From assembly GCA_025463905.1 (NCBI GenBank), contig JAODBJ010000147.1, forward strand, positions 1 to 41,794: 41,794 nucleotides of DNA. The letters are read 5' to 3'. The position numbers were made by a program, and so were the translations under genes. This DNA comes from Actinomycetes bacterium. Its GTDB lineage: Bacteria; Actinomycetota; Acidimicrobiia; IMCC26256; PALSA-610. The first letter of the stretch is position 1, and every line of letters begins with the position of its first letter. Of this stretch, positions 7,378 through 27,802 are shown in pieces. Under the pieces are notes generated by a model, which saw nothing but the letters and a program-made list of their open reading frames with translations, was not told the DNA's origin and made no database searches.

Positions 7378-8319
7378 GTGACCGAAGGCGACGGTGCCGT
7401 CCTTGCATGCGACGACGGAACGGTGCTGCACATCACGCCGCTCGGCGGCTGTTTCGGCGCCCGTGTCGCCGGCGTCGACCTCTCGCAACCACTGCACCCG
7501 TCGGTGGTCGCCGCGCTCGATCACGCCTTCGTCGTGTGGCACATCTTGTGCTTCCCGGGCCAGGACCTGACGCCGGCCGACGAGATCCGGATCGTGCAGT
7601 ACTTCGACGACGGCGTGTACTACGAGCCCAGCGTCGTCGCGTACTCCCTGCCGGGATACCCCGAGATCGACATCATCAGCAATATCGAGGTCGACGGCAA
7701 AGCCATCGGCTACACGAACCGACGCGGCATGGAGTGGCACTCCGACCTGAGTGGCATGCCCGTGATGCCGAAAGCGTCGCTGATGTACGCGATCGAGGTG
7801 CCCGAGACCGGAGGCGAAACCTATTTCGCAAACGGGCACCTCGCGTACGAGTCCCTGCCGGCCGAGCGGCGGACCTACCTCGACGGGCTCGACGCGCGCT
7901 ACAGCTGGGTGCAACTCCAAGAGTGGCTTGCGAAGGCCAGCGGCACGTGGGAACCGATGAACCGGGAGACTGCCGCGAAGCACCCCGACGTCGTGCGCTC
8001 CCTCGTCCGCCACCATCCCGTCACGGGACGCAAGGCACTGTTCTTCTCCATCGAGGAGATTGTCGAGCTCTCCGGCCTCGACCGCTCGGAGACACGCGCG
8101 TTGCTCGAAGAGCTGATCGCGCACATGACCACCACGCCCCACGTTGTCTATCGCCACGACTGGGAGCCTGGTGAGCTCGTGGTATGGGATAACCGCTGCC
8201 TTATGCACAGCGTGTGTGAGTACAACTACGAGGGCCAGCGTCGGCTCATGCACCAGTTGAACGGCGCGGACGCGCGTTCCGCGGAGCAGACCATCGCGAT
8301 CATTCCGGTCGCACTGTGA
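7378..8319 (+). CDS. TauD/TfdA-family Fe(II)/2-oxoglutarate-dependent dioxygenase
   Basis: HITPLGGCFGARVAGVDLSQPL, EWHSDLSG (HxD-type), GGETYFAN, VVWDNRCLMHSVCEY distal His. Start GTG 7378 or TTG 7372. Confidence 0.85.
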   Translation: MTEGDGAVLACDDGTVLHITPLGGCFGARVAGVDLSQPLHPSVVAALDHAFVVWHILCFPGQDLTPADEIRIVQYFDDGVYYEPSVVAYSLPGYPEIDIISNIEVDGKAIGYTNRRGMEWHSDLSGMPVMPKASLMYAIEVPETGGETYFANGHLAYESLPAERRTYLDGLDARYSWVQLQEWLAKASGTWEPMNRETAAKHPDVVRSLVRHHPVTGRKALFFSIEEIVELSGLDRSETRALLEELIAHMTTTPHVVYRHDWEPGELVVWDNRCLMHSVCEYNYEGQRRLMHQLNGADARSAEQTIAIIPVAL

Positions 8320-8362
8320 GTACCGCGCGGCCGGCAACACTGGATCCAACCGGAGGTTGTGC

Positions 8363-9463
8363 ATGACGAGCCTGCTGGATCGCGCCGACTCGGCGGAGCG
8401 CCCGGTCTATCGCCTGCCACCTGAGGCGTATTACGACCCGGCGTGGTACGAGCGCGAGCGCCGTGAGCTGTTCGGTCGTACGTGGAACCTTGTCGGTCAC
8501 GTCAGCGAATGCATGCAGCCCGGCGATTACTTCACCGCGCTGGTCGGCACCGAGCCGGTTGTCGTGGTTCGCCAAAACGACGGCACGTTGCGCGGCTTTC
8601 TCAACCTCTGCCGTCACCGCGGAATGGTCATTGCGTGTGGCAGCGGGAACTGCGGCGAGTCGCTCCGTTGTGGTTACCACGGGTGGGAGTTCGCCCTCGA
8701 CGGTGCACTCGAACGGGTGCCGCAGCGCAAGACCCAGTTCCCCGACATCGATGCCGGCGCGCTCGGGTTGTTCGACGTGTCGGTGCAGGTGTGGGGCGGG
8801 TTCATCTTCGTGCACCCCGACCCGGCGGCGGAAGCGACGTTCACTGCGTGGCTCGGAGACTTGCCCGAGCACTGTGGCGACTACCCATGGGACGACATCG
8901 TCGAGATCGCGCGCACCCGCGTGCCGCTGCGTTGCAACTGGAAGCTCTACATCGAGAATCACATCGACTGGCTGCACCTCTGGTACCTCCACCAAGACAG
9001 CCTGAAGATGTACGAACACCATGAGGCGAGCTACGCGACGTCGGGACGCCATTGGTACTCGGCCGAGGTCCTGCGGGTTGGTGAAGGCAGCCAAACGCCG
9101 CGCTCAGTGATGCAGCCGATTCCGGGTGTCAGCGAGGACGAGTTACGTACCCTGCGCGCCAACCTGATGTTCCCGAACGTCCCGATGGCGACGATGGGGA
9201 CCATGGTGCAGACGTACCAGGTCGTGCCGACCGGCCCCGAGACGTGCGAGCTCGATATTCGCAACTACGGCGCGCCCGGCGCGGTCGTCAGCGAGGAGAT
9301 GCGCGCACAAGGTCTGTTGATCCTGCGCGACGAAGACGGTGTCGCGTGCGAGCAGATGCAGATGGCGATCCACTCCGCGCGGTTCGAGGTCGGTCCGCTC
9401 GCCATCGAGCACGAGCGCCCGATCGCCGACTTCCACGCCAACTTGCTCACGTATCTCGGCTGA
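8363..9463 (+). CDS. Rieske non-heme iron aromatic-ring-hydroxylating oxygenase, large (alpha) subunit
   Basis: Rieske motif CRHRGMVI...CGYHGWEF; catalytic-domain NWKLYIENHIDWLHLWYLH. SD CGGAGG before ATG 8363. Confidence 0.88.
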   Translation: MTSLLDRADSAERPVYRLPPEAYYDPAWYERERRELFGRTWNLVGHVSECMQPGDYFTALVGTEPVVVVRQNDGTLRGFLNLCRHRGMVIACGSGNCGESLRCGYHGWEFALDGALERVPQRKTQFPDIDAGALGLFDVSVQVWGGFIFVHPDPAAEATFTAWLGDLPEHCGDYPWDDIVEIARTRVPLRCNWKLYIENHIDWLHLWYLHQDSLKMYEHHEASYATSGRHWYSAEVLRVGEGSQTPRSVMQPIPGVSEDELRTLRANLMFPNVPMATMGTMVQTYQVVPTGPETCELDIRNYGAPGAVVSEEMRAQGLLILRDEDGVACEQMQMAIHSARFEVGPLAIEHERPIADFHANLLTYLG

Positions 9464-9496: not shown

Positions 9497-10693
9497 GTGA
9501 CGGCGAGACATGAACGGCGCGCGCTCCTTGCAGCCGCGTTCGTGTGCATGGCGAGCACCAGCGTCGTCTTCCCGCTCCTCGCCGCGTTACAAGACGAACA
9601 CCATCTTCCGACCGCCGGCATCGGGGTCATCGCGGCTGGACCATTTTTCGCCGCGGTGGCAGTGCAACTTGGCCTCGCCCACCTCGCGGACCGCGGCGGC
9701 GCTCGCCGGCTCATGGTTGCGGGCATCGTGCTTGCGTCCGCGTCATTGTTCGGCATGGCGGCGGGCCGGTCGCTGTGGCAATTCGTGCTCGCGCGCTCGC
9801 TCGCCGGCCTGGCGTTAGGCGTCTTCCTGCCGGCCGCGCGCGCAACGGCGGCGGGATCCGTCGAGGGTGAGCACGCGCACGGGCTTGGTCGTCTCTCGAG
9901 CGCAGAGCTCGCCGGCTTGGTCGCGGGCCCGGCTGTCGGGGCGGCCATCGCCGCTGTCGCCGGTGTCGTCACGGCCTTCCTCGCCGTCGGTGTCGCCGGG
10001 TTGGTCGTGGCCGTGTTCATCGGTCGCCATCTGCCGAATGGTGTGGACGGTGCGGAAGGCAGCGCGCCGGCCTTACTGCGACCCGCGGGGCGCGGGTTCG
10101 CCGCATTCGCCGGTAACCGCAACGCGGGCGCGGCGATCCTGCTCATCGTCGCGATCGAGTACCCCGTCGGGATGTTCGAGGCGACCTGGGCCCGGTACCT
10201 CGTCGATCGGGGTGCGAGCAGCTTGTTCGTCGGACTCAGTGCCGCGACGTTCGGTCTCCCGTTCATACTGCTCGCGGCCGGTGGCGGCCGAGTGGCCGAT
10301 CGCATCGGGCCGGCGCGCGCGGCGGCGTTGGCGTCGCTTGTCGTCGCACCGATCATTGCCGCGTACAGCGTCCCGCACCGGCCGGGACTGATCGTCAGCC
10401 TCGCGGTGCTCGAAGCATGCTTCCAGGCGATCGCGATTCCCGCGGCGCGGGCGGCGATGGTCGCCGCGTCGCCGCCCGATGGCGTGGCTGCCGGCCAAGG
10501 GCTCGCCGGCGCGGTGGGATTGTTCGCGACCGGTGTTGCCGCGCTCGTGACGCCGGCGGTGTACACCGCCGGCGGCGCGGTCGCGATGTGCACGTCGGTC
10601 GCGGCCGTCGTGGTGGTCATGGTGATCGGCGCGCTGATGCTCGGCCCGTCGGTGCGTCCTGCGGCTCGACCGGTCGCCGAAATGAACACGTAA
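9497..10693 (+). CDS. MFS transporter
   Basis: Twelve-TM-like hydrophobic pattern; LAHLADRGGARRLMVAGIVLA, RSLAGLALGVFLPAARA; GTG start. Confidence 0.8.
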   Translation: MTARHERRALLAAAFVCMASTSVVFPLLAALQDEHHLPTAGIGVIAAGPFFAAVAVQLGLAHLADRGGARRLMVAGIVLASASLFGMAAGRSLWQFVLARSLAGLALGVFLPAARATAAGSVEGEHAHGLGRLSSAELAGLVAGPAVGAAIAAVAGVVTAFLAVGVAGLVVAVFIGRHLPNGVDGAEGSAPALLRPAGRGFAAFAGNRNAGAAILLIVAIEYPVGMFEATWARYLVDRGASSLFVGLSAATFGLPFILLAAGGGRVADRIGPARAAALASLVVAPIIAAYSVPHRPGLIVSLAVLEACFQAIAIPAARAAMVAASPPDGVAAGQGLAGAVGLFATGVAALVTPAVYTAGGAVAMCTSVAAVVVVMVIGALMLGPSVRPAARPVAEMNT

Positions 10694-10710
10694 CCAACCG
10701 GGAACGTTGC

Positions 10711-10784: not shown

Positions 10785-11582
10785 ATGCCCCGGCGATGGG
10801 TCGACCAAACGTGGATGCAGCTGGAAGACCTTGCGGGCGGCGCCGAAGTCGGTCTCGTACCGGTCGGCGCGACCGAGCAGCACGGCCCGCACCTTCCAAC
10901 CGCGACCGACACCATCATCGCCACCGCGATCTGTGAGGCCGCGAGCGACCGGTGTGGTGCGCCGGTGCTCCCGGCGATTCCCCTCGGGGCGAGCTACGGC
11001 CACGGCACGGTCATGCCGGGCACGATCTCGTTGACCCCTGAGCTCCTCGCGGCGGTCGTGCGCCAGTACGTCGAGTGGGCGGCTGCGTCGGGGCTCACGC
11101 GTCTCCTGTTCGTCAACGCGCACTTCGGTAATGCCGCATCTCTCGGCATCGCGACCGATCACGTGCGGCTCTACCGGCCCGACCTGCAGGTAGGAACGGT
11201 CGACTGGTGGTCGCTCGATCCGATCGTGGCCTCCGAAACGGTCGCCGACGGCGCCGATCTGCACGCCAACCGAGCCGAGACGTCGGTGATGCTCGCGGTC
11301 GCGCCCGAGCTTGTCGATCGCGCCCGCATGGCCAACGCGGACGACCCCGACCGCACCGGCGACCTCGTGTTCCGATACACCGCACCGAGCCTGTCGACGA
11401 ACGGCGTCACGGGACGCCCGTCGGAAGCGACGGTCGAGCTCGGCGAACTTCTCGTCGCGCGCACCGCCGACGCGTTGAGCGCGCGGGTTGAGCGCGGACG
11501 TGTAGAGGAGCCGCCGCTCGGACGCGCACCATTTCCGAAACTCACCCGTCACCCAGAGGAAGTTTTGTCATGGACACCGTAA
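10785..11582 (+). CDS. Creatininase-family amidohydrolase
   Basis: VPVGATEQHGPHLPTATDTIIA, GASYGHGTVMPGTISL, LLFVNAHFGN. Confidence 0.85.
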   Translation: MPRRWVDQTWMQLEDLAGGAEVGLVPVGATEQHGPHLPTATDTIIATAICEAASDRCGAPVLPAIPLGASYGHGTVMPGTISLTPELLAAVVRQYVEWAAASGLTRLLFVNAHFGNAASLGIATDHVRLYRPDLQVGTVDWWSLDPIVASETVADGADLHANRAETSVMLAVAPELVDRARMANADDPDRTGDLVFRYTAPSLSTNGVTGRPSEATVELGELLVARTADALSARVERGRVEEPPLGRAPFPKLTRHPEEVLSWTP

Positions 11583-12937
11583 GCCCGACGACCGACGCGC
11601 ATCGCCAACTCACGACCGATCTCGCGGAACGTGGCGTCAAATACGTCGTCGGGTCATTCGTCGACATCACCGGCCGGGCCAAGTCGAAGGTCGTGCCGAT
11701 CGACCATCTCCCGAACCTTCTTGCGGGTTCGGAGCGGTACACGCCGCGTGGACTCGGCGAGCTCGGGCAGATGACGCCTCACGAAGACGAGTGCGTCGCG
11801 ATGCCCGACCCTTCGACCGTGCGTGTCATGCCGTGGGACCCGACCTTCGCGTGGATGGCCGCCGACCTTCTCTACGGCGGCACGGAACCGTTCGCGCACT
11901 GCACACGTTCGATGCTGAAGGGTCAGCTGGCCGTCGCGCAAGAACGTGGCTTCGTCTTCAACCTCGGCGTCGAGACGGAGATCTACGCGTACAAACCCGA
12001 TGCGATCGGTGCTGACGGCTACCTCGGGCCCATCGCGCCGAGCGGCCGCATCGATCCCACGCCCGGGTACGACGTCGAGAGCACCCTCGACGCGATGCCG
12101 TTCCTCGATCCGATGGTTCGTTACATGAACGAGTCGGGCTTCGGTATCTACAGCTTCGATCACGAAGGCGGCGACGCACAGTTCGAGTTCGATTTCCAGT
12201 ACGCGCCGGCGCTCGAGATGGCCGACAAGATCACGTTCTTCCGCCTGATGGCGAAGCAGGTCGCGAAGTCGGCCGGGTTGGCCGTGACGTTCATGCCCAA
12301 GCCCTATACCGACGCGTGGGGATCGGGTCATCACTTCAACATGAGCCTCACCGATGTCGAGTCGGGTCAGAACCTGTTCCGCGACGTCGACGGCCCTCGT
12401 GGTTGGAGCAAGCTCTGCTACGGGTTCATCGCCGGTATCGTTCGCCATGCCGCGGCGCTCGCCGCGATCGCGACGCCGACGGTGAACTCCTACAAGCGTC
12501 TGGTGCCGCGCCTCACCGACGGTTGCGTGTCGTGGGCGCCGGTGTGGGCGGCGTACGGCGACAACAACCGCTCGTGCATGCTGCGTCTCCCGCGTAACCG
12601 TCCGTGTCTCGAGAACCGCGCGGTCGACTCCGCCGCGAACACGTACGCGGCGGCCGCGTTCATGCTCGCCGCCGGCCTCGAAGGGATCGCCGAGGGACTC
12701 GACCCCGGCGAGCCGATCGAAGACCTCATGTACGACTCGACGAAGCGCTCCGACGCGGTGCGGCTTCCTCGCAACCTGCTCGAGGCGATCGACGCATTCG
12801 AGGCGGACCCGTTGAGCCATTCGGTCTTCCCGGCCGAGTTCGTGAGCGCGTACGTCGAGATGAAGAACAACGAATGGGACGCGTACCACTCGCAGGTCAG
12901 CGAGTGGGAGCGCGACAAGTACCTCGCGATGTTCTGA
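11570..12937 (+). CDS. Glutamine-synthetase-family ligase, GlnT / gamma-glutamylmethylamide synthetase-like
   Basis: VKYVVGSFVDITGRAKSKVVPIDHL, GVETEIYAY, FDHEGGDAQFEFDF, FMPKPYTDAWGSGHHFNMSL, RLPRNRPCLENRAVDSAANTYAA. Confidence 0.85.
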   Translation: MDTVSPTTDAHRQLTTDLAERGVKYVVGSFVDITGRAKSKVVPIDHLPNLLAGSERYTPRGLGELGQMTPHEDECVAMPDPSTVRVMPWDPTFAWMAADLLYGGTEPFAHCTRSMLKGQLAVAQERGFVFNLGVETEIYAYKPDAIGADGYLGPIAPSGRIDPTPGYDVESTLDAMPFLDPMVRYMNESGFGIYSFDHEGGDAQFEFDFQYAPALEMADKITFFRLMAKQVAKSAGLAVTFMPKPYTDAWGSGHHFNMSLTDVESGQNLFRDVDGPRGWSKLCYGFIAGIVRHAAALAAIATPTVNSYKRLVPRLTDGCVSWAPVWAAYGDNNRSCMLRLPRNRPCLENRAVDSAANTYAAAAFMLAAGLEGIAEGLDPGEPIEDLMYDSTKRSDAVRLPRNLLEAIDAFEADPLSHSVFPAEFVSAYVEMKNNEWDAYHSQVSEWERDKYLAMF

Positions 12938-13611
12938 TGCGGGTTGGCGTTGTCATAGGTCGGTACCCGACCGAGCGATACTCGCTACACCGGGGGTACA
13001 TCGACGCGCTACGCGCACTCGACGCCACGCCGGTCATCGTTCCGGCGGGCGACGGGTGTGGCCCGGCGCTCGCGGCCGAACTGCTCAGCGACTGCGACGC
13101 GTTGGTCGTGACCGGAGGTGGCGACCTCGAGTCGACCACGTACGACTCGGAACCCGCCGACGTGCGTGACGCCGACGCGAACCGCGACGCCGTCGATCTT
13201 TGGGCCGTTCGAACGTTCTACGCGATGAGCCGGCCCGTCCTCGGGATCTGTCGCGGCGCACAGGCAATCGCGGTCGCGATGGGCGGGAAGCTCGTGCAAG
13301 ATCTCGTGCACGCCGGGTTCGCCGACCACTGGCAGGAAGCGCGGCAACACGAACCGGTCCACGCCGTGGAGGCGGAACCCGGCTCCTATGCGGCGCAGGC
13401 ACTGGGTGGCGCAACCGTCGTGAATTCGATCCATCACCAAGCTGTTTGTGAACTGGGCTCGGCGTTGCGCGCGACCGCGTGGAGTCCGGACGGTGTCGTC
13501 GAAGCCGTCGAAGCCGAGGGCCTTCTAGCGTTGCAGTGGCATCCAGAACGGTTGCTCGCTGACGACGCGCGGCATCTCGCGCCCTTCGAATGGCTGGTGA
13601 AACAGATATGA
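12937..13611 (+). CDS. Class I glutamine amidotransferase / gamma-glutamyl hydrolase, PuuD-like
   Basis: DALVVTGGGDL, PVLGICRGAQAIAVAMGG, NSIHHQAV, LALQWHPE; start ATG 12937 overlaps the preceding stop. Confidence 0.85.
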   Translation: MRVGVVIGRYPTERYSLHRGYIDALRALDATPVIVPAGDGCGPALAAELLSDCDALVVTGGGDLESTTYDSEPADVRDADANRDAVDLWAVRTFYAMSRPVLGICRGAQAIAVAMGGKLVQDLVHAGFADHWQEARQHEPVHAVEAEPGSYAAQALGGATVVNSIHHQAVCELGSALRATAWSPDGVVEAVEAEGLLALQWHPERLLADDARHLAPFEWLVKQI

Positions 13612-14384
13612 CCGAATCCCGCGTTGCGGTTGTTACCGGTGGTGGACGTGGGCTCGGGCGCGGTATCGCGCTCGCGCTCGCCGATGACGGCTACGACGTC
13701 GTCCTCGGCTGGCGTTCCGACCAGGCGGCGGCGGAGGAGACGGCCGAAGCGGTTCGCGAGCGCGGTCGCGCGGTGAAGATGGTCTCGGGCGACGTCGCCG
13801 AAGCATCGACGATGACGTTGCTCGCCGACGCGGCCGCGTCACTCGGCGACCTGCGCGTGTGGGTGAACAACGCAGGCGTGTCCGTCATAGCGACGGTCGC
13901 CGACACTCCGCCGGCGGAGATGGAGTGGATGCTCGCGATCAATGTCATGGGCACGCTGCACGGCATGCAAGCCGCGGTACGCGTGATGCGCGACGCCGGA
14001 AACGGCGGCTGCATCGTGAACGTCGCTTCGGATGCCGGTCTGCAGGGCTTCGCGTATCTCGGTGGCTATGCCGCCACGAAGTTCGCGGTCGTCGGCCTCA
14101 CGCAAAGCGCGGCGCTCGAGCTCGCGGTCGACGGCATCACGGTGAACGCGGTCTGCCCGGGAACCGCCGAGACGGACATGAATCGGGCCGAGTGGCAGGC
14201 CGAGACGGCGCTCACCGAACGCAACCTCGACGACGTGCGCGCCGCGTCTCTCGACGAGATCCCGTTGGGGCGGTTCTGCACGCCGGCCGATGTCGGCGCG
14301 ACGGTCGCATGGATCGTGAGCCCCGGCGCCGCCTTCGTTACCGGCCAGGCCGTGTGTGTCAACGGCGGGATGGTCCTGCATTGA
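13608..14384 (+). CDS. SDR-family oxidoreductase
   Basis: VTGGGRGLGRGIALAL, NNAGVS, YAATKFAV, ATG overlaps the preceding stop (ATGA). Confidence 0.9.
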   Translation: MTESRVAVVTGGGRGLGRGIALALADDGYDVVLGWRSDQAAAEETAEAVRERGRAVKMVSGDVAEASTMTLLADAAASLGDLRVWVNNAGVSVIATVADTPPAEMEWMLAINVMGTLHGMQAAVRVMRDAGNGGCIVNVASDAGLQGFAYLGGYAATKFAVVGLTQSAALELAVDGITVNAVCPGTAETDMNRAEWQAETALTERNLDDVRAASLDEIPLGRFCTPADVGATVAWIVSPGAAFVTGQAVCVNGGMVLH

Positions 14385-14397
14385 ACAAGGAGACGAT

Positions 14398-15030
14398 GTG
14401 CGCCAACCGATGATCGTCGGCAACCCCGTGTTGATCGTCGTCGACATGCAGAATTCGGGAGGCCGGCCTATCGAAGAGGTCGGCATCCCGATCATGGACG
14501 GGTACGAGGAGCGGCGCGCCAACGCGCTGGAGATCGTTGCCGCGGCGCGCCGCGGGGGCGTGCCGGTGATCTTCTTCCAAGAAGCGCACCGGCGGAACCT
14601 CGTCGACTTTGGGCGCGAGCTCGACGGTACGGAAGGCATTCACTGCCTCGAAGGTGATGCCACCACCGAACTCGACCCGGCGTTACTTCCCGAGGACGGC
14701 GAATACCACATTGTCAAGCGGCGCTACTCGTGCTTCTTCGGAACGGAGCTCGAAATCCTCCTGAAGGGATTGCGCGCCGACACACTCGTGCTCATCGGTG
14801 GTCTCACCGACGTGTGCGTGCACTACACGTTCGCCGACGGCCACCAGCGCGACTACTTCATGCGGGTCGTCGAAGACTGCGTCGGCGGGTCGTCGTTCGC
14901 CGCGCACGACGCGTCGCTCGCAGCCATGGAGTACCTCCAAGGCGGCGCGCGCGTCACGACCGCAACCGTCATCGACGCGTTCGCGCTCCGCGCGGACCCG
15001 TCCATCTCTTCTGTCCCGGCTTCCGTTTAG
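14398..15030 (+). CDS. Isochorismatase-family cysteine hydrolase
   Basis: PVLIVVDMQNSGG, IVKRRYSCFFGTELEILLKGLRADTLVLIGGLTDVCVHYTFADGHQRDYFMRVVEDC; GTG start with AAGGAGA SD. Confidence 0.85.
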   Translation: MRQPMIVGNPVLIVVDMQNSGGRPIEEVGIPIMDGYEERRANALEIVAAARRGGVPVIFFQEAHRRNLVDFGRELDGTEGIHCLEGDATTELDPALLPEDGEYHIVKRRYSCFFGTELEILLKGLRADTLVLIGGLTDVCVHYTFADGHQRDYFMRVVEDCVGGSSFAAHDASLAAMEYLQGGARVTTATVIDAFALRADPSISSVPASV

Positions 15031-15077
15031 CCGTTCTCATGCATCCGCAGTCGACATCAGTACATCCAGGAGGATCT

Positions 15078-16703
15078 GTGCCCCGCCGAAAGACCGACCA
15101 CCCCCGCACGCGCTGGCTGCGGCTCGCTGCTCTTGTCGCCGCGCTCGCGCTCGCCGTCGCGGCGTGCGGTGGCACCTCGTCGGGCAACGCCTCTTCCGGC
15201 AATAACGGCGGCGGCAACGGCGGCGCGGCTTCGACGACGTTGCGAACCGCGTTCGTCGCCGACATGCAGGTTCCCGACCCCGACATCTTCTACGAGACCG
15301 AGGGCAACCAGGTCGTGATGTCGACCTATGAAGGGTTGGTTCGCTATCAGCAAAACCCGCCGACGAACGCCCTCGAAGGGCTTCTCGCGACGTCGTGGGA
15401 GAAGTCGGCCGACGGGAAGACCTACACGTTCCACCTGCGCTCGAACGTGAAGTTCGAGGATGGCACGCCGATGGACTCCGCCGCGGCGAAGGCGAGTTTC
15501 GAACGACGGCCGAAGGTGAACCAGGGCCCGGCGTACATGCTCGCCCAGGTCGCGTCGTACGGCACCCCCGACCCGCTGACGTTCGTCGTGAACCTCAAGC
15601 AGCCGGTGTCGGCGTTCATGGACTACCTCGCTGCTCCCTACGGTCCGAAGCTCTTGAGCCCGACCGCGATGACGAAGTACGCGAAGGGTGGCGACTTCAC
15701 GCAGGGCTACCTGAAGACGCACAGCATCGGCACCGGTCCGTACTACATCAAGTCGTTCACCCTCGGGCAGCAATACGTGCTCGCTGCGAACCCGAACTAC
15801 TGGGGTGCGAAGCCGAAGATCACGACGATCGAGATCAACATCGTCCCGGACCTCTCGACGCAGCAGCTGAAGATCGAAGGTGGCGACCTCGACATCCTGC
15901 ACAATCTGCCGGCCGCAACCACCAATACGTTCAAGACCAAGAGCGGCTTCCAGGTGATCACCATCCCGGCGTTGCAGAAGTCGGTGTTGAAGATCAACCC
16001 GCAGAAGGCGCCGTTCAACGACCTGTCGCTGCGCCAGGCCCTGCGCGCCGCAATCGACCGCAACAAACTCACGAGCGAGATCTACGGCAACCTCGGCACC
16101 GTGTCGACGCAGATGTTGCCGGCCGGCATGCAGCCTGCCGGTACCGGTCTCGACTCGTACACGTACGACCCGACGTTGCTCCCGGCCGCGGTGAAGAAGC
16201 TGCCGTCGTCGTCGAAGAGCATCACGATCGCGTACGCGTCTGGATTCGTGAACGACCAGCGCACGGCGGAAGCGATCCAGAAGGTGCTGGCCGACGCGGG
16301 ATTCAACGCCAAGGTCACGCCGATCACGCTCGCGCAGTTCTTCGCGCTGCGTGACCAACCCGAGTCGAAGGTGCCGAATCTCCTGGTGGAGACGGCCAAC
16401 CCCGACGCGGCGCATCCCGACACGTACCTGCGGATCTTCTTCAACACGGGAGGATTCCTCAACTACGTCAAAGGTGGGAGCAAAGCCGCCGACGCCGAGA
16501 TGGACCGCGGCTTGTACACCAACGACCCGGCGGTCGTGAAGGACGCGTACGAGAAAGCGTCTCAGCTCGTGCACGATTCGGCGACGTTCGTGACGATCGC
16601 CGACGTGAAGGGCACGTTCGTGGCAACCACCAAGCTGAAGGGCTGGACAAGTACCGGGGCGGCACCGCTGAGCCTCAACTTCCAGTCCGCGACGCTCGGA
16701 TGA
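15078..16703 (+). CDS. ABC transporter substrate-binding lipoprotein, family 5 (peptide/opine/nickel type)
   Basis: Lipobox LAVAACGG, YEGLVRYQ, LATSWEKSADGKTYTFHLRSNVKFEDGTPMDS, IGTGPYYIKS; GTG 15078 with CCAGGAGG SD. Confidence 0.9.
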   Translation: MPRRKTDHPRTRWLRLAALVAALALAVAACGGTSSGNASSGNNGGGNGGAASTTLRTAFVADMQVPDPDIFYETEGNQVVMSTYEGLVRYQQNPPTNALEGLLATSWEKSADGKTYTFHLRSNVKFEDGTPMDSAAAKASFERRPKVNQGPAYMLAQVASYGTPDPLTFVVNLKQPVSAFMDYLAAPYGPKLLSPTAMTKYAKGGDFTQGYLKTHSIGTGPYYIKSFTLGQQYVLAANPNYWGAKPKITTIEINIVPDLSTQQLKIEGGDLDILHNLPAATTNTFKTKSGFQVITIPALQKSVLKINPQKAPFNDLSLRQALRAAIDRNKLTSEIYGNLGTVSTQMLPAGMQPAGTGLDSYTYDPTLLPAAVKKLPSSSKSITIAYASGFVNDQRTAEAIQKVLADAGFNAKVTPITLAQFFALRDQPESKVPNLLVETANPDAAHPDTYLRIFFNTGGFLNYVKGGSKAADAEMDRGLYTNDPAVVKDAYEKASQLVHDSATFVTIADVKGTFVATTKLKGWTSTGAAPLSLNFQSATLG

Positions 16704-17578
16704 GCGTGCACGCGCCAGGGGCGCCGGTCCAACGCAGGTGGTTCCCGGCGCCCCTGCGCGTCACGTTCATCAGCAGCCGGCTACGCAAGGTCGGCAAACT
16801 CGAGTCCGTCGCGCTCGGCACGTTGATCGCGCTGACAATCCTCCTGTTGCTGGTGCCACTCTTCGCTCCGCACGGCGCGACCGACGACGTCGGCAAATCG
16901 CTTACGGGTCCGAGCGTGCATCACTGGATGGGCATCGACGAACAGGGCCGCGACGTGCTCAGCCGCGTCCTGTTCGGCATGCGCACCAGTTGGTTCGCCG
17001 CATTCGAAGTCATCGCGTCCGGCGTGGTCATCGGCGGTTTGATCGGTCTCGTAGCCGGCATGAGCGGTGGTTGGATCGACAACCTCCTGATGCGCATAAC
17101 CGACGTGTTCCTGGCGCTGCCGGGCCCGTTACTCGTGTTGGCGGTGGTTTCCGCCTTGGGTCCGTCGCTTCCGCACACGCTGGTCGCGGTCGGCGTCGTC
17201 TGGTGGCCGTTCTACGCCCGCATAGTGCGCGGTGAGGTCCGCTCGATCGCGTCACGCAGCCATGTGGAAGCGGCGCGCATGGGTGGTGCCGGCCGGTTGC
17301 GCGTCGCGTTCCGCCATGTCGTCCCGGGAACCTTCGGTGCGGTGCTCGTGACCGCATCCCTCGACATCGGTGCGCTGTTGCTCACGTTGGCCGGGCTTTC
17401 CTTCCTCGGGCTCGGATCGCCGGCGCCGGCTCCGGAGCTCGGAGCGATGACGTCGCGAGGTCTCGCCTACCTGTTCGACGCGTGGTGGGTGCCGGTGTTC
17501 CCCGCATTGGGTGTGTTCCTGCTCGCGTTCATCGGCAACGTCGCCGGCGACGGCGTGCGCGACCTCGTGGAGGCTTGA
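16700..17578 (+). CDS. Opp/Dpp-type ABC transporter permease (DppC-like)
   Basis: HWMGIDEQGRDVLSRVLFGMRTSW, MRITDVFLALPGPLLVLAVVSALG, EAARMGGAGRLRVAFRHVVPG. Confidence 0.88.
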   Translation: MSVHAPGAPVQRRWFPAPLRVTFISSRLRKVGKLESVALGTLIALTILLLLVPLFAPHGATDDVGKSLTGPSVHHWMGIDEQGRDVLSRVLFGMRTSWFAAFEVIASGVVIGGLIGLVAGMSGGWIDNLLMRITDVFLALPGPLLVLAVVSALGPSLPHTLVAVGVVWWPFYARIVRGEVRSIASRSHVEAARMGGAGRLRVAFRHVVPGTFGAVLVTASLDIGALLLTLAGLSFLGLGSPAPAPELGAMTSRGLAYLFDAWWVPVFPALGVFLLAFIGNVAGDGVRDLVEA

Positions 17579-17581
17579 GCC

Positions 17582-18595
17582 GTGTCCCGGATGATCCTGG
17601 TTCGCATCGGTTCACTCATGGTCGTCTTGCTCGTGCTCACGCTCGCCGTGTTCATGATCAAGGCCGTGCTGCCGGCCGACCCGGTCCGGGCCGCCGTAGG
17701 TGCCCAGGCGAGCGAGGAGATCGTGCAGGCCAAGCGGCACGAGCTCGGCTACGACAAGCCGCTGCCGAACCAGTACGTGCGCTTCCTCGGCAACGTGATG
17801 CACGGCGACTTTGGCGACTCGCTTCGCACCCGCCGTCCGGTGCTCGACGACATCAACCGATACGCACCGGCAACGATCGAGCTTGCGCTTTGCGCCGCGC
17901 TTCTCGCCGGTTTCCTCGGCATCCTCCTCGGTTTGTGGTCCGCGCACGGCGGGCGGGGCTCGGGGAGCGCGCGCGTCACGATGCTCGCGTTCGCGTCGGC
18001 ACCCACGTTCTTTCTCGGGATCTTGCTCCTCTTGCTGTTCTACGGACGGTTGCATTGGCTGCCGGCGTCCGGCCGGCTGAGCAACAAACACGTCGACAGT
18101 GGACCGACCGGTTTCTTGATCATCGACTCGCTCATCCATCGCAACCCGGGCGAGTTGGTCGACGCGTTGCAGCATCTCGCCATACCGGCGGTGTGCCTCG
18201 CGCTCGGTCCTGCCGTCGCGATCGGTCGGGTGTTGCGCAGTTCGCTGCTCGACGTGATGCGCCAGGATTACGTGCGAACAGCACGCGCCAAGGGCCTGTC
18301 GGAGTGGATGGTGGTGCTGCGCCACGCGTTGCGCAACGCGTCCGGCCCGGCGCTGTCGATGGCCGGACTACAGGTCGGTCTGTTACTCGCCGGCGTGGTT
18401 GTCGTCGAACTCGTGTTCGCGTGGCCCGGTCTCGGCCTGTACACGCAGCAATCGATCCAGCAGGCCGACTTCCCGGCGATCATCGGCATCACGCTCGTGT
18501 TGGGCATCGCGTACGTCGCAATCAACGCAATCGTCGACGTCATGCAACTCGTCGCGGACCCAAGACTCCGGGTCGTCGGAAGAGCGGTGGCATAG
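17582..18595 (+). CDS. Opp/Dpp-type ABC transporter permease (DppB-like)
   Basis: KRHELGYDKPLPNQYVRFLGNVMHGDFGDSLRTRRPVLDDI; LDVMRQDYVRTARAKGLSEWMVVLRHALRNA. Confidence 0.88.
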   Translation: MSRMILVRIGSLMVVLLVLTLAVFMIKAVLPADPVRAAVGAQASEEIVQAKRHELGYDKPLPNQYVRFLGNVMHGDFGDSLRTRRPVLDDINRYAPATIELALCAALLAGFLGILLGLWSAHGGRGSGSARVTMLAFASAPTFFLGILLLLLFYGRLHWLPASGRLSNKHVDSGPTGFLIIDSLIHRNPGELVDALQHLAIPAVCLALGPAVAIGRVLRSSLLDVMRQDYVRTARAKGLSEWMVVLRHALRNASGPALSMAGLQVGLLLAGVVVVELVFAWPGLGLYTQQSIQQADFPAIIGITLVLGIAYVAINAIVDVMQLVADPRLRVVGRAVA

Positions 18596-20692
18596 GTGAG
18601 CATCATGGAAATCGAACCCGCGACGATCGACTCCGGCGGCAACGGCAGCGGCAACGTTGTCGCGTCGGTGCGCGATCTCGAAGTTGAGTTCAAAACCGGC
18701 AAGGGCATCGTGCGCGCGCTTCGAGGCGTGTCGCTCGACATCCATGCCGGCGAAGTCGTCGCGCTCGTCGGTGAGTCGGGATCGGGCAAGAGCGTCTTCG
18801 GCATGTCGTTGCTCGGACTCCTGCAAACGTCGGCGCGACCGACGATTCGCGGGCAAGTCCATGTCGCCGGCATCGACATGCTGCACGGCGCCGGCGGCGT
18901 CCGCCGCCGCGTCCGCCAAGAATTGCTCGGCGCGGTGTTCCAAGACCCGCTCACGTCGCTGAACCCGACGATGCGTGTCGGCCGTCAACTCCTCGAACGG
19001 GGCATCGACCGTGAACGGGCGCTGCGCCAACTGGGCGAAGCCGGTGTTCCCGACCCCGAGCGCCGGTTCCGCCAGTACCCGCACGAGTTGTCGGGTGGGT
19101 TGCGCCAGCGGGTGATGATCGCGATGGCGCTCGGTGGCCGCGGCGACATCGACCAGTCCCGGCGGCGTAAGAAGCGCCACGCACCGGTGGTGGACCTCGC
19201 CGGGGCGGAGGCGGCGGAGCTGCCGGTGACCGTGGCGCACGACGCGAGCGACGCGCCTCGCCTCATCGTCGCCGACGAACCGACCACCGCGCTCGACGTG
19301 AGCGTGCAAGCCCAAGTGGTGTTGCTGTTCGACCGGCTGCGGCGCGAGCACGGCTGCGCGGTGCTGCTCGTCACCCACGACCTCGGTGTCGCCGCGTCGA
19401 TTGCCGATCGGGTGGTCGTGCTCTACGGCGGGCGAGTCTGCGAGGTCGGCCCGGCCGCGAGCGTGCTGCGCGATCCCGCGCACCCCTACACGAAGGCGCT
19501 CCTCGCGGCGCGCCTGTCGGTCGACGGAACGACGGTACGCACCGATCCGATGCCCGGCGATCCGCCGAACCCGCTCGCGCTGCCACCCGGTTGCGCGTTC
19601 GCGCCACGGTGCTCGTCGGCCACGGTGGAATGCGAGGTCGAACCGCCCGAACTGACGCCGCGCGCGCGCGAGCACGCGGGGGAGGTCGCGTGCCTGCATC
19701 CATGCAGCGTCGGCGAGGCTGATGCAAGCACGTCGCGGGTTGCGGTGACGATGACGCGCGTTGCGTCGCCGCGCCCGGCGGGCGCCGGCGACGCGCTGGA
19801 GCTCGTCGACGTGAGCAAGACATACGAGGTCAACGGGGGCGGGCTCGGCAAGGCGAAGCTCGTCGCGGTCGATTCGGTGACGCTCACGGTGCCCGCGCGA
19901 GGTTCGGTCGCGCTGGTGGGGGAGAGCGGGTGCGGCAAGACAACCACGTTGCGCATCGCGACCGGTCTCCTCCAACCGGACCGCGGGTCGGTGCGTTGGG
20001 CGCCCGACGGTGGCCGCCCGCAACTCATCTTCCAAGACTGCGGAAGTTCGCTCACGCCGTGGATGTCGATCGGCATGCAGGTCGAGGAGCGGCTCCGAAT
20101 GCTCGGTGTGCCAAAGGGGCAGCGCCAAGCGAAGGCGCTCGACTATCTCGGTCGGGTCGGTCTCGATCGGCGAGCATCGGAGTCGAAGCCGCGCGAGTTG
20201 TCGGGTGGTCAGCGCCAGCGCGCAGTGATCGCGCGAGCGCTGGCATCCGATCCGAAGCTGCTCGTCTGCGACGAACCGGTAAGCGCGCTCGACGCGTCGC
20301 TCGCTGTCCGCGTCCTCACGCTGCTCGAATCGCTGCGCGACGATCTCGGCGTCGCGCTGCTCGTCGTCACCCACGACCTCGCCGCGGCGCGCCGCATCGC
20401 GGACGAGGTGGCCGTGATGTACCTCGGCGCGATCGTGGAGCAGGCACCGGCGGATGTGCTGTTCGAACACCCGTCGCATCCGTATACGCAGGGTTTGATC
20501 GCCGCGAGCCCGACGACCGAGCCGGGACGTCTTTCGCCGACCCTCGCGGGCGAGGCGCCGAGCGCGATCGGCGAACGGCACGGCTGCGCGTTCGCGCCTC
20601 GTTGCCCCGTCGCGACCGAGGTGTGCGTCGAGGAGACGCCGGAGTTCAAGGTTCGCGGCGCCGGCTTACCCGTCGCCTGTCATCACGCCTGA
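18596..20692 (+). CDS. Fused double Opp/Dpp-type ABC ATPase (DppD-DppF fusion)
   Basis: Two Walker A (GESGSGKS; GESGCGKT), two signature motifs (LSGGLRQRV; LSGGQRQRA), two Walker B (LIVADEPTTALD; LLVCDEPVSALD), each half ending in a Cys-containing oligopeptide-ABC C-terminal region (GCAFAPRC...). Confidence 0.9.
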   Translation: MSIMEIEPATIDSGGNGSGNVVASVRDLEVEFKTGKGIVRALRGVSLDIHAGEVVALVGESGSGKSVFGMSLLGLLQTSARPTIRGQVHVAGIDMLHGAGGVRRRVRQELLGAVFQDPLTSLNPTMRVGRQLLERGIDRERALRQLGEAGVPDPERRFRQYPHELSGGLRQRVMIAMALGGRGDIDQSRRRKKRHAPVVDLAGAEAAELPVTVAHDASDAPRLIVADEPTTALDVSVQAQVVLLFDRLRREHGCAVLLVTHDLGVAASIADRVVVLYGGRVCEVGPAASVLRDPAHPYTKALLAARLSVDGTTVRTDPMPGDPPNPLALPPGCAFAPRCSSATVECEVEPPELTPRAREHAGEVACLHPCSVGEADASTSRVAVTMTRVASPRPAGAGDALELVDVSKTYEVNGGGLGKAKLVAVDSVTLTVPARGSVALVGESGCGKTTTLRIATGLLQPDRGSVRWAPDGGRPQLIFQDCGSSLTPWMSIGMQVEERLRMLGVPKGQRQAKALDYLGRVGLDRRASESKPRELSGGQRQRAVIARALASDPKLLVCDEPVSALDASLAVRVLTLLESLRDDLGVALLVVTHDLAAARRIADEVAVMYLGAIVEQAPADVLFEHPSHPYTQGLIAASPTTEPGRLSPTLAGEAPSAIGERHGCAFAPRCPVATEVCVEETPEFKVRGAGLPVACHHA

Positions 20693-20716: not shown

Positions 20717-20771
20717 CTGGTTTTGATCTCAAAAACCGGCCGCTTTCGGGGTCTTTCTGAGATCAAAACCC
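20717..20771. repeat. Palindromic element copy A (13-bp perfect terminal inverted repeats)
   Basis: GGTTTTGATCTCA (20719-20731) ... TGAGATCAAAACC (20758-20770); related to copy B at 31110-31164. Confidence 0.85.
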
Positions 20772-21605
20772 CATTCTTTCGTCCCAGGTGGGGTAGCCGA
20801 GCTCGCGGGTGAAGGCGGGCCACACGTCGGGATCGTGACCCGGCAGCAGGCGGTACCCGCGCGCGGCGGCGATCGACTTCAGCCGCCGGATTGCTTCGAC
20901 GGTCTGTTCGGGCGGCATCCCGATCGCGTGGCCGACGGGTAGCTCGTCGTCGAGGTTCTCCTGAAGATCGGCGGCATCGAACGCGAACACGTACCCGCCG
21001 CCACCGACCGACTCGTCGAGATCGATCACGAAGCTTTGATGCCCCGGCGAATGCCCGGCGGTGAGTACCGCGGTGACGCCGGGCGCGATCTCGACGTCGC
21101 CGTCGGCGACGTGCCAGTCGATGTTCGGGTCGTCGACATCGACGCGGAACATCGCGTTGCGTTCCGGTTCTGGGTGCGGCGAGTCCAGCACGTACTCGAG
21201 TTCCGCGCGCTGCGCGAACACCGGTACCTCACCGGCGAACCAGCGCAACCCGCCCGAGTGGTCGAGATGGAAGTGGCTCACGCCCACTGCGGTAACGATC
21301 GACGGGTCGAGGCCCACGAGGTCGAACGCGGCGACGAGTGGATCGCGCACCGGGTCCGGGAGTTCTGCTTCGTAGTCGCCGAGGCTGTCGTTGAACCGGC
21401 GCCGGAACGGGACGTCGCGTACGAACGCCGGGTTGAAGCCCGTGTCGAGCAACAGCCAGCCGCCGTCCACTTCGCACAGCACTCCGGGCACCGGTTCTCG
21501 CATCCGGATCGACGGGTCCGCGCCGTATACGGACACCGACTTGCCCAGGTGCTCCCATCCGAAGGTGAGCGGTACGACTCGCCGTACGCCGCTCATCGTG
21601 CGCAC
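20763..21605 (-). CDS. MBL-fold metallo-hydrolase (N-acyl homoserine lactonase-like)
   Basis: SHFHLDHSGG, GHSPGHQS, FAFDAADL, LLPGHDPDVW; GTG 21605 or ATG 21596 start. Confidence 0.8.
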   Translation of the reverse strand: MRTMSGVRRVVPLTFGWEHLGKSVSVYGADPSIRMREPVPGVLCEVDGGWLLLDTGFNPAFVRDVPFRRRFNDSLGDYEAELPDPVRDPLVAAFDLVGLDPSIVTAVGVSHFHLDHSGGLRWFAGEVPVFAQRAELEYVLDSPHPEPERNAMFRVDVDDPNIDWHVADGDVEIAPGVTAVLTAGHSPGHQSFVIDLDESVGGGGYVFAFDAADLQENLDDELPVGHAIGMPPEQTVEAIRRLKSIAAARGYRLLPGHDPDVWPAFTRELGYPTWDERMGF

Positions 21606-21676: not shown

Positions 21677-22516
21677 GTGACCCTTCCTGTGATTGATCCA
21701 TGGTTCGCTCGTCGTCGCGTCGACGACCGCATCACCCTGCTGTGGGAACCGCACGTCGACCGGCTCGTGCAGTGCAACATCTGGCACGTGCGCGGCCGCG
21801 ACCGCGACCTCCTCGTCGACACCGGCCTCGGAATCGCGTCGCTGCGTAGTGCCGCCACTGACCTGTTCGACAACCGCCTGCTCGCCGTGGCGACGCACTT
21901 CCACTACGACCACACCGGCAGCCTGCACGAGTTCGACCAGCGCGCGATCCATCGCGCCGAGGCCGCGGTGATCGCGGAAGAAGGCGGGATCGGCGGTGGG
22001 CTCGTCGTCGCCGACATTCCCGACGACGTACGCGACGCGATCGTCACCGGCGGGTATCCCCTCGACGACGACCTGCTCGTCAGTGCGGTGCCCGACGCTG
22101 GTTATGACCCGTCGACCTACACCGTGCCGCCCACCGCGCCCACGATCGTGCTCGACGAAGGCGACGTCATCGACCTGGGCGACAGCGCGTTCGAGGTGCT
22201 GCACCTGCCCGGCCATTCGCCTGGGAGCATCGGCCTCTGGGAGGCGTCGACCGCGACGTTGTTTTCGGGCGACGCGCTTTACGACGGCCCCCTGCTCGAC
22301 GAAGTGCCCGGCGCCGACATCGAGGCCTACATCACGACGATGGAACGCCTGCGCGATCTGCCGGCCGGCGTGGTGCACGCAGGTCACGACCCGAGCTTCG
22401 GGCGCGAACGTCTCGTCGAGCTCACGACGGCGTACCTCGACATGCGTAAGCCCGGTCATGGCAACGTTGCCGCACTGTCGTCCGCGGCGGGCTCCGCGTT
22501 CCCCGAACCCAAGTAG
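21677..22516 (+). CDS. MBL-fold metallo-hydrolase
   Basis: DLLVDTGLG, ATHFHYDHTGS, LPGHSPGSIGLW, LFSGDALYDG, VHAGHDPSFG. Confidence 0.85.
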   Translation: MTLPVIDPWFARRRVDDRITLLWEPHVDRLVQCNIWHVRGRDRDLLVDTGLGIASLRSAATDLFDNRLLAVATHFHYDHTGSLHEFDQRAIHRAEAAVIAEEGGIGGGLVVADIPDDVRDAIVTGGYPLDDDLLVSAVPDAGYDPSTYTVPPTAPTIVLDEGDVIDLGDSAFEVLHLPGHSPGSIGLWEASTATLFSGDALYDGPLLDEVPGADIEAYITTMERLRDLPAGVVHAGHDPSFGRERLVELTTAYLDMRKPGHGNVAALSSAAGSAFPEPK

Positions 22517-24240
22517 GCCCGCCAGCCGCCGAAGTCGGTGATCTCTCGTGCGTGTTCGAGCGCGTACGGCTCGCAGACGAAGCCCGGCACCCAGGTTCCG
22601 TCGGCGAGTTCGAGCGAGCCGATCCCGAGGGGCGTGCGCACACCGGCGACGAAGCGCCCGAACGCGGCGTCGTCGAGCGCCCACACTTCGACCTCGATCG
22701 CGCGGCCGCGTTCGGTGTCGCGCACGAGGCCGGGCTTGGGCGGCGTGACACGCAGGTCGAACAGCCGGTAGCTGAAGCTTGTCGTCGTCTGCGCGACGAA
22801 GCTTCCGCGGAGGTCGCGCAGTTGCGCATTGAGCGGCTGGCCGCGCAGGTGAGCGCCCGCGACTGCGACCAGGTGTTGCGACGCCGTCGATGGCGGTGCG
22901 AATGTCGGTGTCACTTCGTCGCGATAGGTCGAGGCGAGCGCAAGCAGCGCTCGGTCCGCGAAGGCGGGACCGATGAACGACACGCCGAACGGCAAGCCGG
23001 ACGCGCGCCGGCCCGCGGGGACCGCGATCCCTGCGAGGTCGAGTGGGTTGACGAAGTTGGTGTACGCACCGAGTTCCCGGCTCGTTGCGATCGGCGCCGC
23101 GAGCGCATCCGCGATGGTGGGATGCCGAGCAATTGTCGGCAAGAACATCGCGTCGATCGTGCGCCAGAGCGGTTTCGTCGCGGCGTGGACCCGTTCCAAG
23201 CGATCGAGGGCACGGAAGGCCGATGGTCCGTCGTATCCGGCGGCTTCGAGCACGATCTTGCGCACGGAGGGGTCGACTGCGTCCGGGTCGGCGGCGACGA
23301 ACTGGCCGAACGCGGCGTAGCGCTCGGCGATGATGGCACTCTCGTAGAGGAGTGTGGCCGCCTCGTGAAACGGTTCGAAGTCGAACGGCACGAGCGTCGC
23401 ACCGGTGGCGTCGAGTGCGTCGAGCGCGGCTTCGTAGCAGACGGCTGCATCGTTGTCGCCGAACCAATCGAGGGTTCGCGGCACGCCGATCCTCCATTGC
23501 GCGGGCGCCGGGAAATCGGTGCCCGCGCGTGCGTACGGATCGTCGGGGTCGCGGTCGGCAACGACGCCGAACACGCGCGCGACATCGCGGCACGACGGTG
23601 CGAACACCGATACGCAATCGAGTGACCACGCGGCAGGGACCACACCGCGGGTCGTGAGTCGTCCCCGACTGGGCTTCATGCCGACGACGCCGCAACACGC
23701 GGCCGGCACGCGTCCGGATCCGGCGGTGTCGGTGCCGAGCGCGAAGGCCACGTCGCCTCGCGCGACCACCGTTGCAGAGCCCGAACTCGAGCCGCCCGCG
23801 ATGTACGCGGAGTCGATCGGGTTCGCGCAGATCCCGAAGTCGGGTGAGCGCACGCCGACCAGCCCGGTGGCGAACTGGTCCATGTTGGTCTTGCCCGCGA
23901 AGATCGCGCCCGCGTCGAGCAGATGTTGCACGACCGGTGCCGACTCTTCGGCGACGTACGCGAAGCTGCGTACTCCGGCGGTTGTGGGGACGTCCGCGAC
24001 GTCGATGTTGTCCTTCACCGCGAACGGCACACCCCGCAGCGGCAGGACGTCGGTCTCGGGCCGCTCGGCGAGCTCGCGTACCCGGGCCCGAAGTTCGTCT
24101 TCGCCGACGGCGTAGGTCCACGCCGTGGTTGGCGGGGCTGCGCCGCGTCGCGTGAGAAGTTCGTCGACGAGCGCGTCGAGGTTCGTGGCTGCGAGTGCCT
24201 GTGCGTCCTCGATTGCCCAGTGGCGGCTGGTTTCAGGCAT
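22456..24240 (-). CDS. atzF: Allophanate hydrolase
   Basis: Amidase signature GGSSSGSATVVARGDVAFALGTDTAGSGRVPAACCGVVGMKPSRGR plus the allophanate hydrolase-type C-terminal domain (GAHLRGQPLNAQL...GFVCEPYALEHAREITDFGGWRAYL); adjacent to the carboxylase. Confidence 0.9.
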   Translation of the reverse strand: MPETSRHWAIEDAQALAATNLDALVDELLTRRGAAPPTTAWTYAVGEDELRARVRELAERPETDVLPLRGVPFAVKDNIDVADVPTTAGVRSFAYVAEESAPVVQHLLDAGAIFAGKTNMDQFATGLVGVRSPDFGICANPIDSAYIAGGSSSGSATVVARGDVAFALGTDTAGSGRVPAACCGVVGMKPSRGRLTTRGVVPAAWSLDCVSVFAPSCRDVARVFGVVADRDPDDPYARAGTDFPAPAQWRIGVPRTLDWFGDNDAAVCYEAALDALDATGATLVPFDFEPFHEAATLLYESAIIAERYAAFGQFVAADPDAVDPSVRKIVLEAAGYDGPSAFRALDRLERVHAATKPLWRTIDAMFLPTIARHPTIADALAAPIATSRELGAYTNFVNPLDLAGIAVPAGRRASGLPFGVSFIGPAFADRALLALASTYRDEVTPTFAPPSTASQHLVAVAGAHLRGQPLNAQLRDLRGSFVAQTTTSFSYRLFDLRVTPPKPGLVRDTERGRAIEVEVWALDDAAFGRFVAGVRTPLGIGSLELADGTWVPGFVCEPYALEHAREITDFGGWRAYLGSGNAEPAADDSAATLP

Positions 24241-27200: not shown

Positions 27201-27802
27201 GTGACCAGGCGTTCGAGGAAGACGCGCCGGTCACCGAACGCTTGTTGAGCCTGGCGCATCGCGCGTTCCACGACGGCGGCGAGGTCGTCGGCGGCGGTGC
27301 ACGCGAGCATGCCGATACCTCCGCCACCAGCGACGCTCTTCACGAGCAAGGGGAAACCGACGGTGTCCACAAGTTCCTGCGCGGATCGAACATCGTCGAG
27401 GGCGTCGGTGCCGGGGAGTAGCGCGCATCCCGTCGTAGCTGCGATCGCGCGGGCGTTGTCTTTCGATCCGAACCGCCTGAGTTGCTCAGGTGTCGGCCCG
27501 ACGAACGCCAGGCCCGCCGCTTCGACGGCCGCCGCGAACTCCGCGTTCTCGGCCAGGAAGCCGTAGCCGGGGTGCAACGCGTCGGCGCCGCTTCGAGCGC
27601 AGGCATCGAGGATGCGTTCCGTCGACAGATAGCTCGCGCTCGGCGCGGGATCTCCGAGCGCGACGCTGTGGGTCGCGAGCCCGACGTGCGGCGCGCCCCG
27701 GTCGGCCTCCGAATACACGGCTACCGATTCGATGCCCATGCGGTCGAGCGTGCGGATGATGCGACACGCGATCTCGCCTCGGTTCGCGATCAGGACGCGC
27801 AT
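24233..27802 (-). CDS. Biotin-dependent urea/guanidine carboxylase
   Basis: Biotin carboxylase domain ([23 protein letters not shown]), central KipI/KipA-like domains ([41 protein letters not shown]), biotinyl motif EAMKMETVV; 1189 aa as expected for this family. Confidence 0.92.
   Translation of the reverse strand: [1189 protein letters not shown]

Follow-up and report, generated by a model that had tools for sequence, protein, structure and literature searches.

Gene content of the locus

The stretch of DNA analysed here (hereafter the window) is a 41,794-nucleotide contig, JAODBJ010000147.1, from a draft Actinomycetota genome (assembly GCA_025463905.1; 4.85 Mb in 366 contigs) whose closest relatives are Acidimicrobiia. 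It carries five coupled genes for a creatininase-family protein (Crn), a glutamine synthetase (GS)-like ligase, a PuuD-like hydrolase of family C26, a short-chain dehydrogenase/reductase (SDR) and an isochorismatase-like hydrolase. The likeliest reading is that they encode uncharacterised enzymes for the use of guanidine-type nitrogen compounds rather than an ordinary amine pathway, because their relatives are led by guanidine riboswitches and lie beside guanidine-breakdown genes.

The five genes and their couplings, as listed in a first-pass annotation made from the sequence alone, were confirmed by open reading frames (ORFs), junction sequences and Pfam matches that are well past chance (Table 1). 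Crn and the ligase gene overlap by 13 nt, the ligase and C26 genes meet in TGATG, the C26 and SDR genes in ATGA, and the isochorismatase-like gene starts with GTG after a 13-nt gap. Further possible starts are an in-frame ATG at 13590 for the SDR and an ATG at 14410 for the isochorismatase-like gene. The same annotation had pictured an isolated module bracketed by the creatininase and isochorismatase genes, a picture that does not survive: the five genes are the middle part of a plus-strand array running from 7390 to 20692, with genes for a TauD-family dioxygenase, a Rieske oxygenase and a major facilitator superfamily (MFS) transporter in its 5′ part and an ATP-binding cassette (ABC) importer in its 3′ part (15030-20692: substrate-binding protein (SBP), two permeases and ATPase). 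Crn may start a transcript of its own, because it is preceded by a 91-nt gap (10694-10784, after the MFS gene) containing a GC-rich inverted repeat (GAACC..CGCGCG / CGCGCG..GGTTC), which may be a terminator or an operator.

Convergent with the array, a minus-strand cluster from 29252 down to 22456 encodes two DUF1989 proteins, a guanidine carboxylase and the allophanate hydrolase AtzF. Alignment of the carboxylase to K. lactis urea amidolyase (5i8i) places Asp at the position of Asn1330 and shows the Asp at 1584 to be conserved, which are the criteria for a guanidine carboxylase (PMC11410670). The adjoining UAAP1/UAAP2 pair scores above both CgdAB-type cut-offs. Because these matches, the carboxylase signature and AtzF occur together, the window is predicted by annotation to carry a complete pathway from guanidine to ammonia.

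Table 1. Genes of the array and of the convergent cluster in the window.
Feature	Position	Strand	Evidence
Crn, creatininase-family metallo-amidohydrolase, module core	10785..11582	+	Creatininase (PF02633) 1.3e-64; adjoins GS in 41/44 loci
GS-like gamma-glutamyl ligase (GmaS-like), module core	11570..12937	+	Gln-synt_C (PF00120) 9e-90; PDB 9qur, 7cql
C26 / PuuD-like gamma-glutamyl hydrolase	12937..13611	+	Peptidase_C26 (PF07722) 7e-46; PDB 6vtv PuuD 3.5e-18
SDR oxidoreductase	13608..14384	+	adh_short (PF00106) 6e-48
Isochorismatase-like cysteine hydrolase (biuret hydrolase / RutB / N-carbamoylsarcosine amidase-like)	14398..15030	+	Isochorismatase (PF00857) 6e-37
ABC importer SBP (SBP_bac_5, Dpp/Nik type)	15030..16703	+	PF00496 4.8e-75
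ABC importer permease 1	16700..17578	+	PF00528
ABC importer permease 2	17582..18595	+	PF00528
Fused double ATPase of importer	18596..20692	+	ABC_tran, 2 stretches
TauD-family 2-oxoglutarate/Fe(II) dioxygenase	7390..8319	+	PF02668 2e-56
Rieske non-haem oxygenase	8357..9463	+	PF00355 and PF00848
MFS transporter	9497..10693	+	PF07690 1e-30
Metallo-beta-lactamase-fold hydrolase (AiiA/pyridoxolactonase-like)	20763..21605	-	PF00753, NCBIfam matches
AtzF allophanate hydrolase	22456..24240	-	TIGR02713 657 bits, cut-off 511
Guanidine carboxylase (urea carboxylase family)	24233..27802	-	TIGR02712 1722 bits; D700 aligns with K. lactis N1330
CgdA-type carboxyguanidine deiminase subunit (UAAP2/DUF1989)	27805..28437	-	TIGR03424 327 bits, cut-off 285
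CgdB-type carboxyguanidine deiminase subunit (UAAP1/DUF1989)	28434..29252	-	TIGR03425 282 bits, cut-off 206
TetR-family regulator, divergent from guanidine carboxylase cluster, candidate regulator	29478..30134	+	TetR_N 4e-17, TetR_C_24

Conservation of the creatininase-ligase pair

A scan for the ligase across a collection of 84,980 genomes yielded 80 loci (numbered below with the prefix L), a sample shaped by the identity cut-off and peptide patterns of the scan and made up of mutually non-independent relatives. We set 44 GS genes (identity 43% or higher) against 37 more distant GS genes as controls, counting genes within 300 bp as adjacent. Crn adjoins the ligase gene in 41 of the 44 loci and in 0 of the 37 controls, and the distance matrices of the two proteins agree (mirror-tree r = 0.85, a value reached by 0 of 2000 permutations). 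Crn and the ligase are a conserved, co-evolving pair and form the core of the module. The pair occurs in Actinomycetota and Pseudomonadota, riboswitch-led in both, and also in Verrucomicrobiota. In proteobacteria the usual order is a NitT-type ABC importer, Crn and the ligase, often followed by CgdB, CgdA, guanidine carboxylase and AtzF. The fetched flanks include a guanidine carboxylase or Cgd gene in 26/44 loci, many of the remaining loci being short contigs, vs 0/36 controls.

The first-pass annotation had proposed a gamma-glutamyl-amide pathway for an amine or amino alcohol, with the SDR as the oxidising enzyme. An ordinary pathway of this kind, centred on the SDR step, found no support: SDR and C26 genes are missing from many loci with the pair, including the proteobacterial version. 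The five-family set, whose co-occurrence it had suggested checking, recurs as a unit in several actinobacterial loci when the isochorismatase is set aside; the isochorismatase itself is not a fixed member. On plasmid pR1CP1 of Rhodococcus opacus 1CP (L121:10664-15573), a GS of the same clade (52%) stands with an AllG-like protein (DUF1116), a C26 hydrolase and a cytosine permease, without Crn.

Guanidine-I riboswitches upstream of the pair

We called a riboswitch where RF00442 (guanidine-I) matched with more than its gathering score, or where a second model, made from such hits, matched; an RF00442 match was present in 1 of 14 control genomes. A guanidine-I riboswitch lies 5′ of the pair, with only same-strand genes between, in 11 loci. 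In three of these it stands directly 5′ of Crn or the ligase gene: L033, a metagenome-assembled genome (MAG) of Frankiaceae (riboswitch 552-658, Crn at 720, then GS, C26, SDR, SBP and ATPase); L037 (riboswitch 5623-5747, GS at 5809, then Crn, C26, SDR, SBP, ATPase and permeases); and L036, a MAG labelled Acidobacteriota (riboswitch, GS, Crn), whose ligase is nearly identical to that of L037. In the other eight, seven Methylobacterium/Methylorubrum loci (L045, L050, L052, L053, L055, L059, L060) and L071, the riboswitch is followed by ABC importer genes, Crn and GS. The pair very probably belongs to a guanidine regulon, and both genomic context and riboswitches favour guanidine or guanidino compounds as substrates over the amines or amino alcohols suggested earlier. 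The L037 and L036 genomes gave no CgdA-type match, which MAG incompleteness may explain in both; the genome of L054 gave no full-length urea/guanidine carboxylase. If the absence of CgdA is real, the module is more than an accessory to carboxylation.

The ligase and its creatininase-family partner

The best PDB relatives of the ligase are the glutamate-methylamine ligase 9qur and RhGmaS (7cql), whose numbering is used here, after PMC7948447. In all 54 clade rows Thr stands at the Asp50′ position and Trp at the flap Glu (Glu304), while K30, Y147, E186 and R312 are kept; the 47 Crn-linked rows all have D177 as well. The window ligase has the same Thr and Trp together with the catalytic D177, E186 and R312, and thus lacks the acids with which glutamine synthetases bind and deprotonate ammonium. 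Its earlier assignment as a GlnT/GmaS-type gamma-glutamyl ligase is supported to this extent, and its substrate is, with good confidence, something other than ammonia. The likeness to GmaS is partial: T, S and D replace A48, Q175 and N188 in 47/47 Crn-linked rows, whereas both GmaS references have Q175 and N188, and the 54-row clade (support 99/99, with long branches that call for caution) leaves out both references. Scores fall below cut-off for the 'type III glutamate-ammonia ligase' model TIGR03105 (443 vs 470) and far below it for PuuA (212 vs 650). An ordinary glutamine synthetase was rejected on the missing ammonium-handling residues.

Crn scores below the cut-offs for creatininase (TIGR04448, 118 vs 235 bits) and MftE (TIGR03964, 137 vs 172 bits). 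It keeps the E34, H36, D45 and H120 positions and lacks E122 and W174, reading NAHFGN where creatininase has NGHYEN; the W174 region is absent. The positions of E122 and W174 were located through the E-to-Q chain 3a6j and the W-to-F chain 3a6e, respectively. Since creatinine is a cyclic acylguanidine, whose acyl-guanidine bond creatininase cleaves, an acylguanidine is the natural guess for the Crn substrate, and Crn would by analogy be an acylguanidine-type amidohydrolase. The family also contains a formamidase (PMC9478397). Plain creatinine degradation was rejected on the score and residues of Crn, and a creatinase was not recognised; a role as MftE in mycofactocin maturation was rejected on the score, and the window shows no recognisable mft genes.

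Accessory genes

A C26 gene follows the pair in L030, L033, L037 and L123. The earlier assignment of the window's C26 protein to the PuuD family is supported, and since its Cys and His-Glu motifs are present it likely shares the fold and chemistry of PuuD, although it scores below the PuuD equivalog cut-off (NF008471, 70.9 vs 266 bits). SDR orthologues (55-60% identical) occupy the same place in L030, L031, L033, L037 and L123, followed in each by an importer SBP gene, and the order GS-C26-SDR is kept in L030, L033 and L123. The isochorismatase was rejected as a fixed member of the unit, being absent from that place in all relatives read. Its close relatives (67-68% identical to the window's protein) sit inside separate riboswitch-led importer operons in L127 and L141, together with an ATPase, permeases, an SBP and a lactamase-fold protein; the L141 aptamer scores 59, below the cut-off of 63. 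The lactamase-fold gene has copies 60-67% identical in L127, L131 and L141 (66% in L131). Relatives of the Rieske protein adjoin the pair in L030, L032 and L123 and occur in riboswitch-led L131 (38%). Neither TauD nor MFS qualified as a conserved partner: in the loci read, neither recurs with the module, except for a TauD in L122 (32%).

In L131 (3869-8248) the guanidine-I riboswitch precedes an agmatinase-like ureohydrolase, the Rieske oxygenase, the lactamase-fold protein and a second such ureohydrolase, and CgdA was not found in the genome. In L129 (8731-10208) it is followed by a 116-aa ORF that matches no Pfam family and by a DIOX_N/2OG-Fe(II) oxygenase that may be a guanidine-releasing hydroxylase.

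Comparison with known systems

The guanidine-breakdown routes in the literature searched are carboxylation and direct Ni-dependent hydrolysis, with MgdH/MgdL for methylguanidine (PMC12508155). The layout had been noted as matching no described pathway, and our literature search found no description of it; nor did it find a link between guanidine riboswitches and creatininases, although key earlier papers may mention the pair. Guanidine carboxylase operons (carboxylase, CgdAB and AtzF, under guanidine-I/II riboswitches) belong to the same regulon: the window has their complete pathway, and in Methylobacteriaceae and other proteobacteria the riboswitch, NitT-type importer, Crn and ligase run on into Cgd and carboxylase genes. 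As described, however, these operons contain neither a creatininase nor a GS-like ligase (PMC12186494, PMC12508155), and the module also occurs in the L036 and L037 genomes without detectable CgdA. The MgdH/MgdL methylguanidine demethylation system resembles the locus in that extra enzymes in a guanidine riboswitch operon widen its range to alkylguanidines and, by family description, in its 2-oxoglutarate dioxygenase, matched here by TauD; it lacks a ligase and a creatininase (PMC12508155). The AtdA1-A5 aniline and NpaA1-A5 1-naphthylamine dioxygenase systems combine a GS-like ligase, a GAT-like hydrolase and a Rieske enzyme acting on a glutamylated nitrogen compound (PMC11335346), whereas here no small Rieske subunit was recognised, a creatininase and an SDR are added, and relatives carry the guanidine riboswitch. 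GmaS shares the loss of Asp50′ and the flap Glu, with the catalytic residues kept; the window ligase differs from it in clade, in the A/Q/N positions and in having Crn as its partner. The PuuA-PuuD putrescine and IpuC/IpuF isopropylamine pathways share the logic of ligase and C26 hydrolase, but the window proteins score far under the PuuA and PuuD cut-offs (PuuD, 71 vs 266), and the amine oxidase and aldehyde dehydrogenase of those pathways were not recognised in the array.

Proposed function and alternatives

We read the region as an Acidimicrobiia guanidine-regulon locus in which guanidine or an alkylguanidine is the compound glutamylated, a reading to which we would give an even chance. The predicted gene set, the co-evolving pair, the riboswitches of its relatives, the neighbouring guanidine pathway and the lost ammonium-handling residues can be read directly from the sequence; the substrate of the ligase and the order of steps we infer. 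The importer (15-20.7 kb) would take up guanidine-type compounds, and the ligase would couple the gamma-carboxyl of L-glutamate to guanidine or an N-alkylguanidine, giving an N-acylguanidine whose basicity would be far below that of free guanidine. The acylguanidine hydrolysed by Crn would be the ligase product itself or else an N-formyl or acyl form arising from oxidation by the Rieske or TauD enzyme plus the SDR. The PuuD-like hydrolase would take off or recycle the gamma-glutamyl group, and freed guanidine would pass to the neighbouring carboxylase, CgdAB and AtzF to give ammonia and CO2. A further proposal, tentative and less likely than not, is a second, glutamylation-based route of guanidine assimilation: the ligase would make gamma-glutamylguanidine or a gamma-glutamyl-alkylguanidine, and this acylguanidine would be processed by a dedicated enzyme of the creatininase family. 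Such a route would run beside carboxylation or replace it where CgdA was undetected (L036/L037).

Several points weigh against this interpretation. The guanidine-I riboswitch is absent from the window, even at a relaxed E-value, and from the whole window genome, so that guanidine regulation there is presumed from relatives. In favour of the interpretation, the TetR protein encoded divergently from the CgdB gene of the window shares 46% identity with one encoded divergently from Crn in L030 (L030:8367-8975), whose genome is likewise without an RF00442 match, and by this comparison a TetR protein may have taken over from the riboswitch in the window genome; a search for an operator common to both window clusters gave only short inverted repeats, nothing convincing. 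Further against it, E122 and W174 are missing from Crn, so that acylguanidine chemistry for this enzyme is an analogy, and Asp at the N188 position is found in true glutamine synthetases too and is no proof of guanidinium binding. The core reaction can do without C26 and SDR, because the proteobacterial version has neither. A glutamylation route alone leaves the coexistence of the pair with guanidine carboxylase in many operons unexplained, and the literature search found no experimental data on any subfamily member.

A somewhat doubtful alternative is that the ligase glutamylates methylamine, dimethylamine or a similar small amine set free by alkylguanidine breakdown in the same regulon, the resulting gamma-glutamylalkylamide being handled by C26, SDR and Crn, which would release and oxidise its carbon part. 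The closest structures, 9qur and 7cql, agree with this, as do the RhGmaS residues K30, Y147, D177, E179, E186, R312 and W300, all kept in the ligase; in L131 and L128, moreover, a riboswitch leads genes of the ureohydrolase family, some members of which free amines from guanidines. It fits poorly with the clade that leaves out both GmaS references, with the T/S/D substitutions and with the guanidine-binding class of the riboswitch 5′ of the pair, and no N-methylglutamate genes (mgs/mgd) were recognised beside the pair, though no systematic search for them was made. It is improbable that the ligase is a specialised glutamine synthetase trapping ammonia from guanidine while Crn and the remaining enzymes deal independently with guanidino compounds: each guanidine broken down does yield three ammonia, the Asp at N188 is GS-like and TIGR03105 is missed only slightly, but Asp50′ and Glu304 are both absent throughout the clade, other GS genes in the window genome score higher as GS, and a private glutamine synthetase would leave the close coupling to Crn unexplained. 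Equally improbable is gamma-glutamylation of an amine or amino alcohol, followed by carrier-bound SDR oxidation and hydrolysis as in Puu/Ipu, with no guanidine link. The GS-C26-SDR order suits that logic, and pR1CP1 has its AllG-like, GS, C26 and cytosine permease genes with no guanidine genes nearby; yet the same four-gene set stands under a guanidine-I riboswitch in L033 and L037, many loci have the core pair without SDR and C26, and guanidine carboxylase genes lie nearby in the window and many relatives. On the guanidine reading, the riboswitch-led ligase-amidohydrolase pair would add to guanidine metabolism a step not yet explained, whose candidate substrates are few and testable, and its recognition would mend likely misannotations (creatininase, type III glutamine synthetase).

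Other genes near the array and the pair

The ORFs at the array edges, 6792-7367 and 21593-22216, have no Pfam match; the latter has a 42% tblastn relative adjoining AtzF in L125. In three Acidimicrobiia an HRI1-family small protein (PF16815) follows the Rieske gene beside the pair (L032:8597-9196, L123:1566-2186, L030:7267-7959). Directly after the ligase gene of a proteobacterial locus, next to guanidine carboxylase genes, lies a NikR-like nickel regulator (L047:11365-11823); L044, L066 and L070 have ORFs resembling it, only that of L047 having been checked as NikR-like. A xylose-isomerase-like TIM-barrel protein lies near the pair in L042 (6116-6961) and L071 (12458-13321), Pfam-tested in both, with similar ORFs close to the pair in L061, L065 and L068; it recurs in Thiomicrorhabdus and Cellvibrionales and, judged by eye from the FKTLWG motif, in Verrucomicrobiota.

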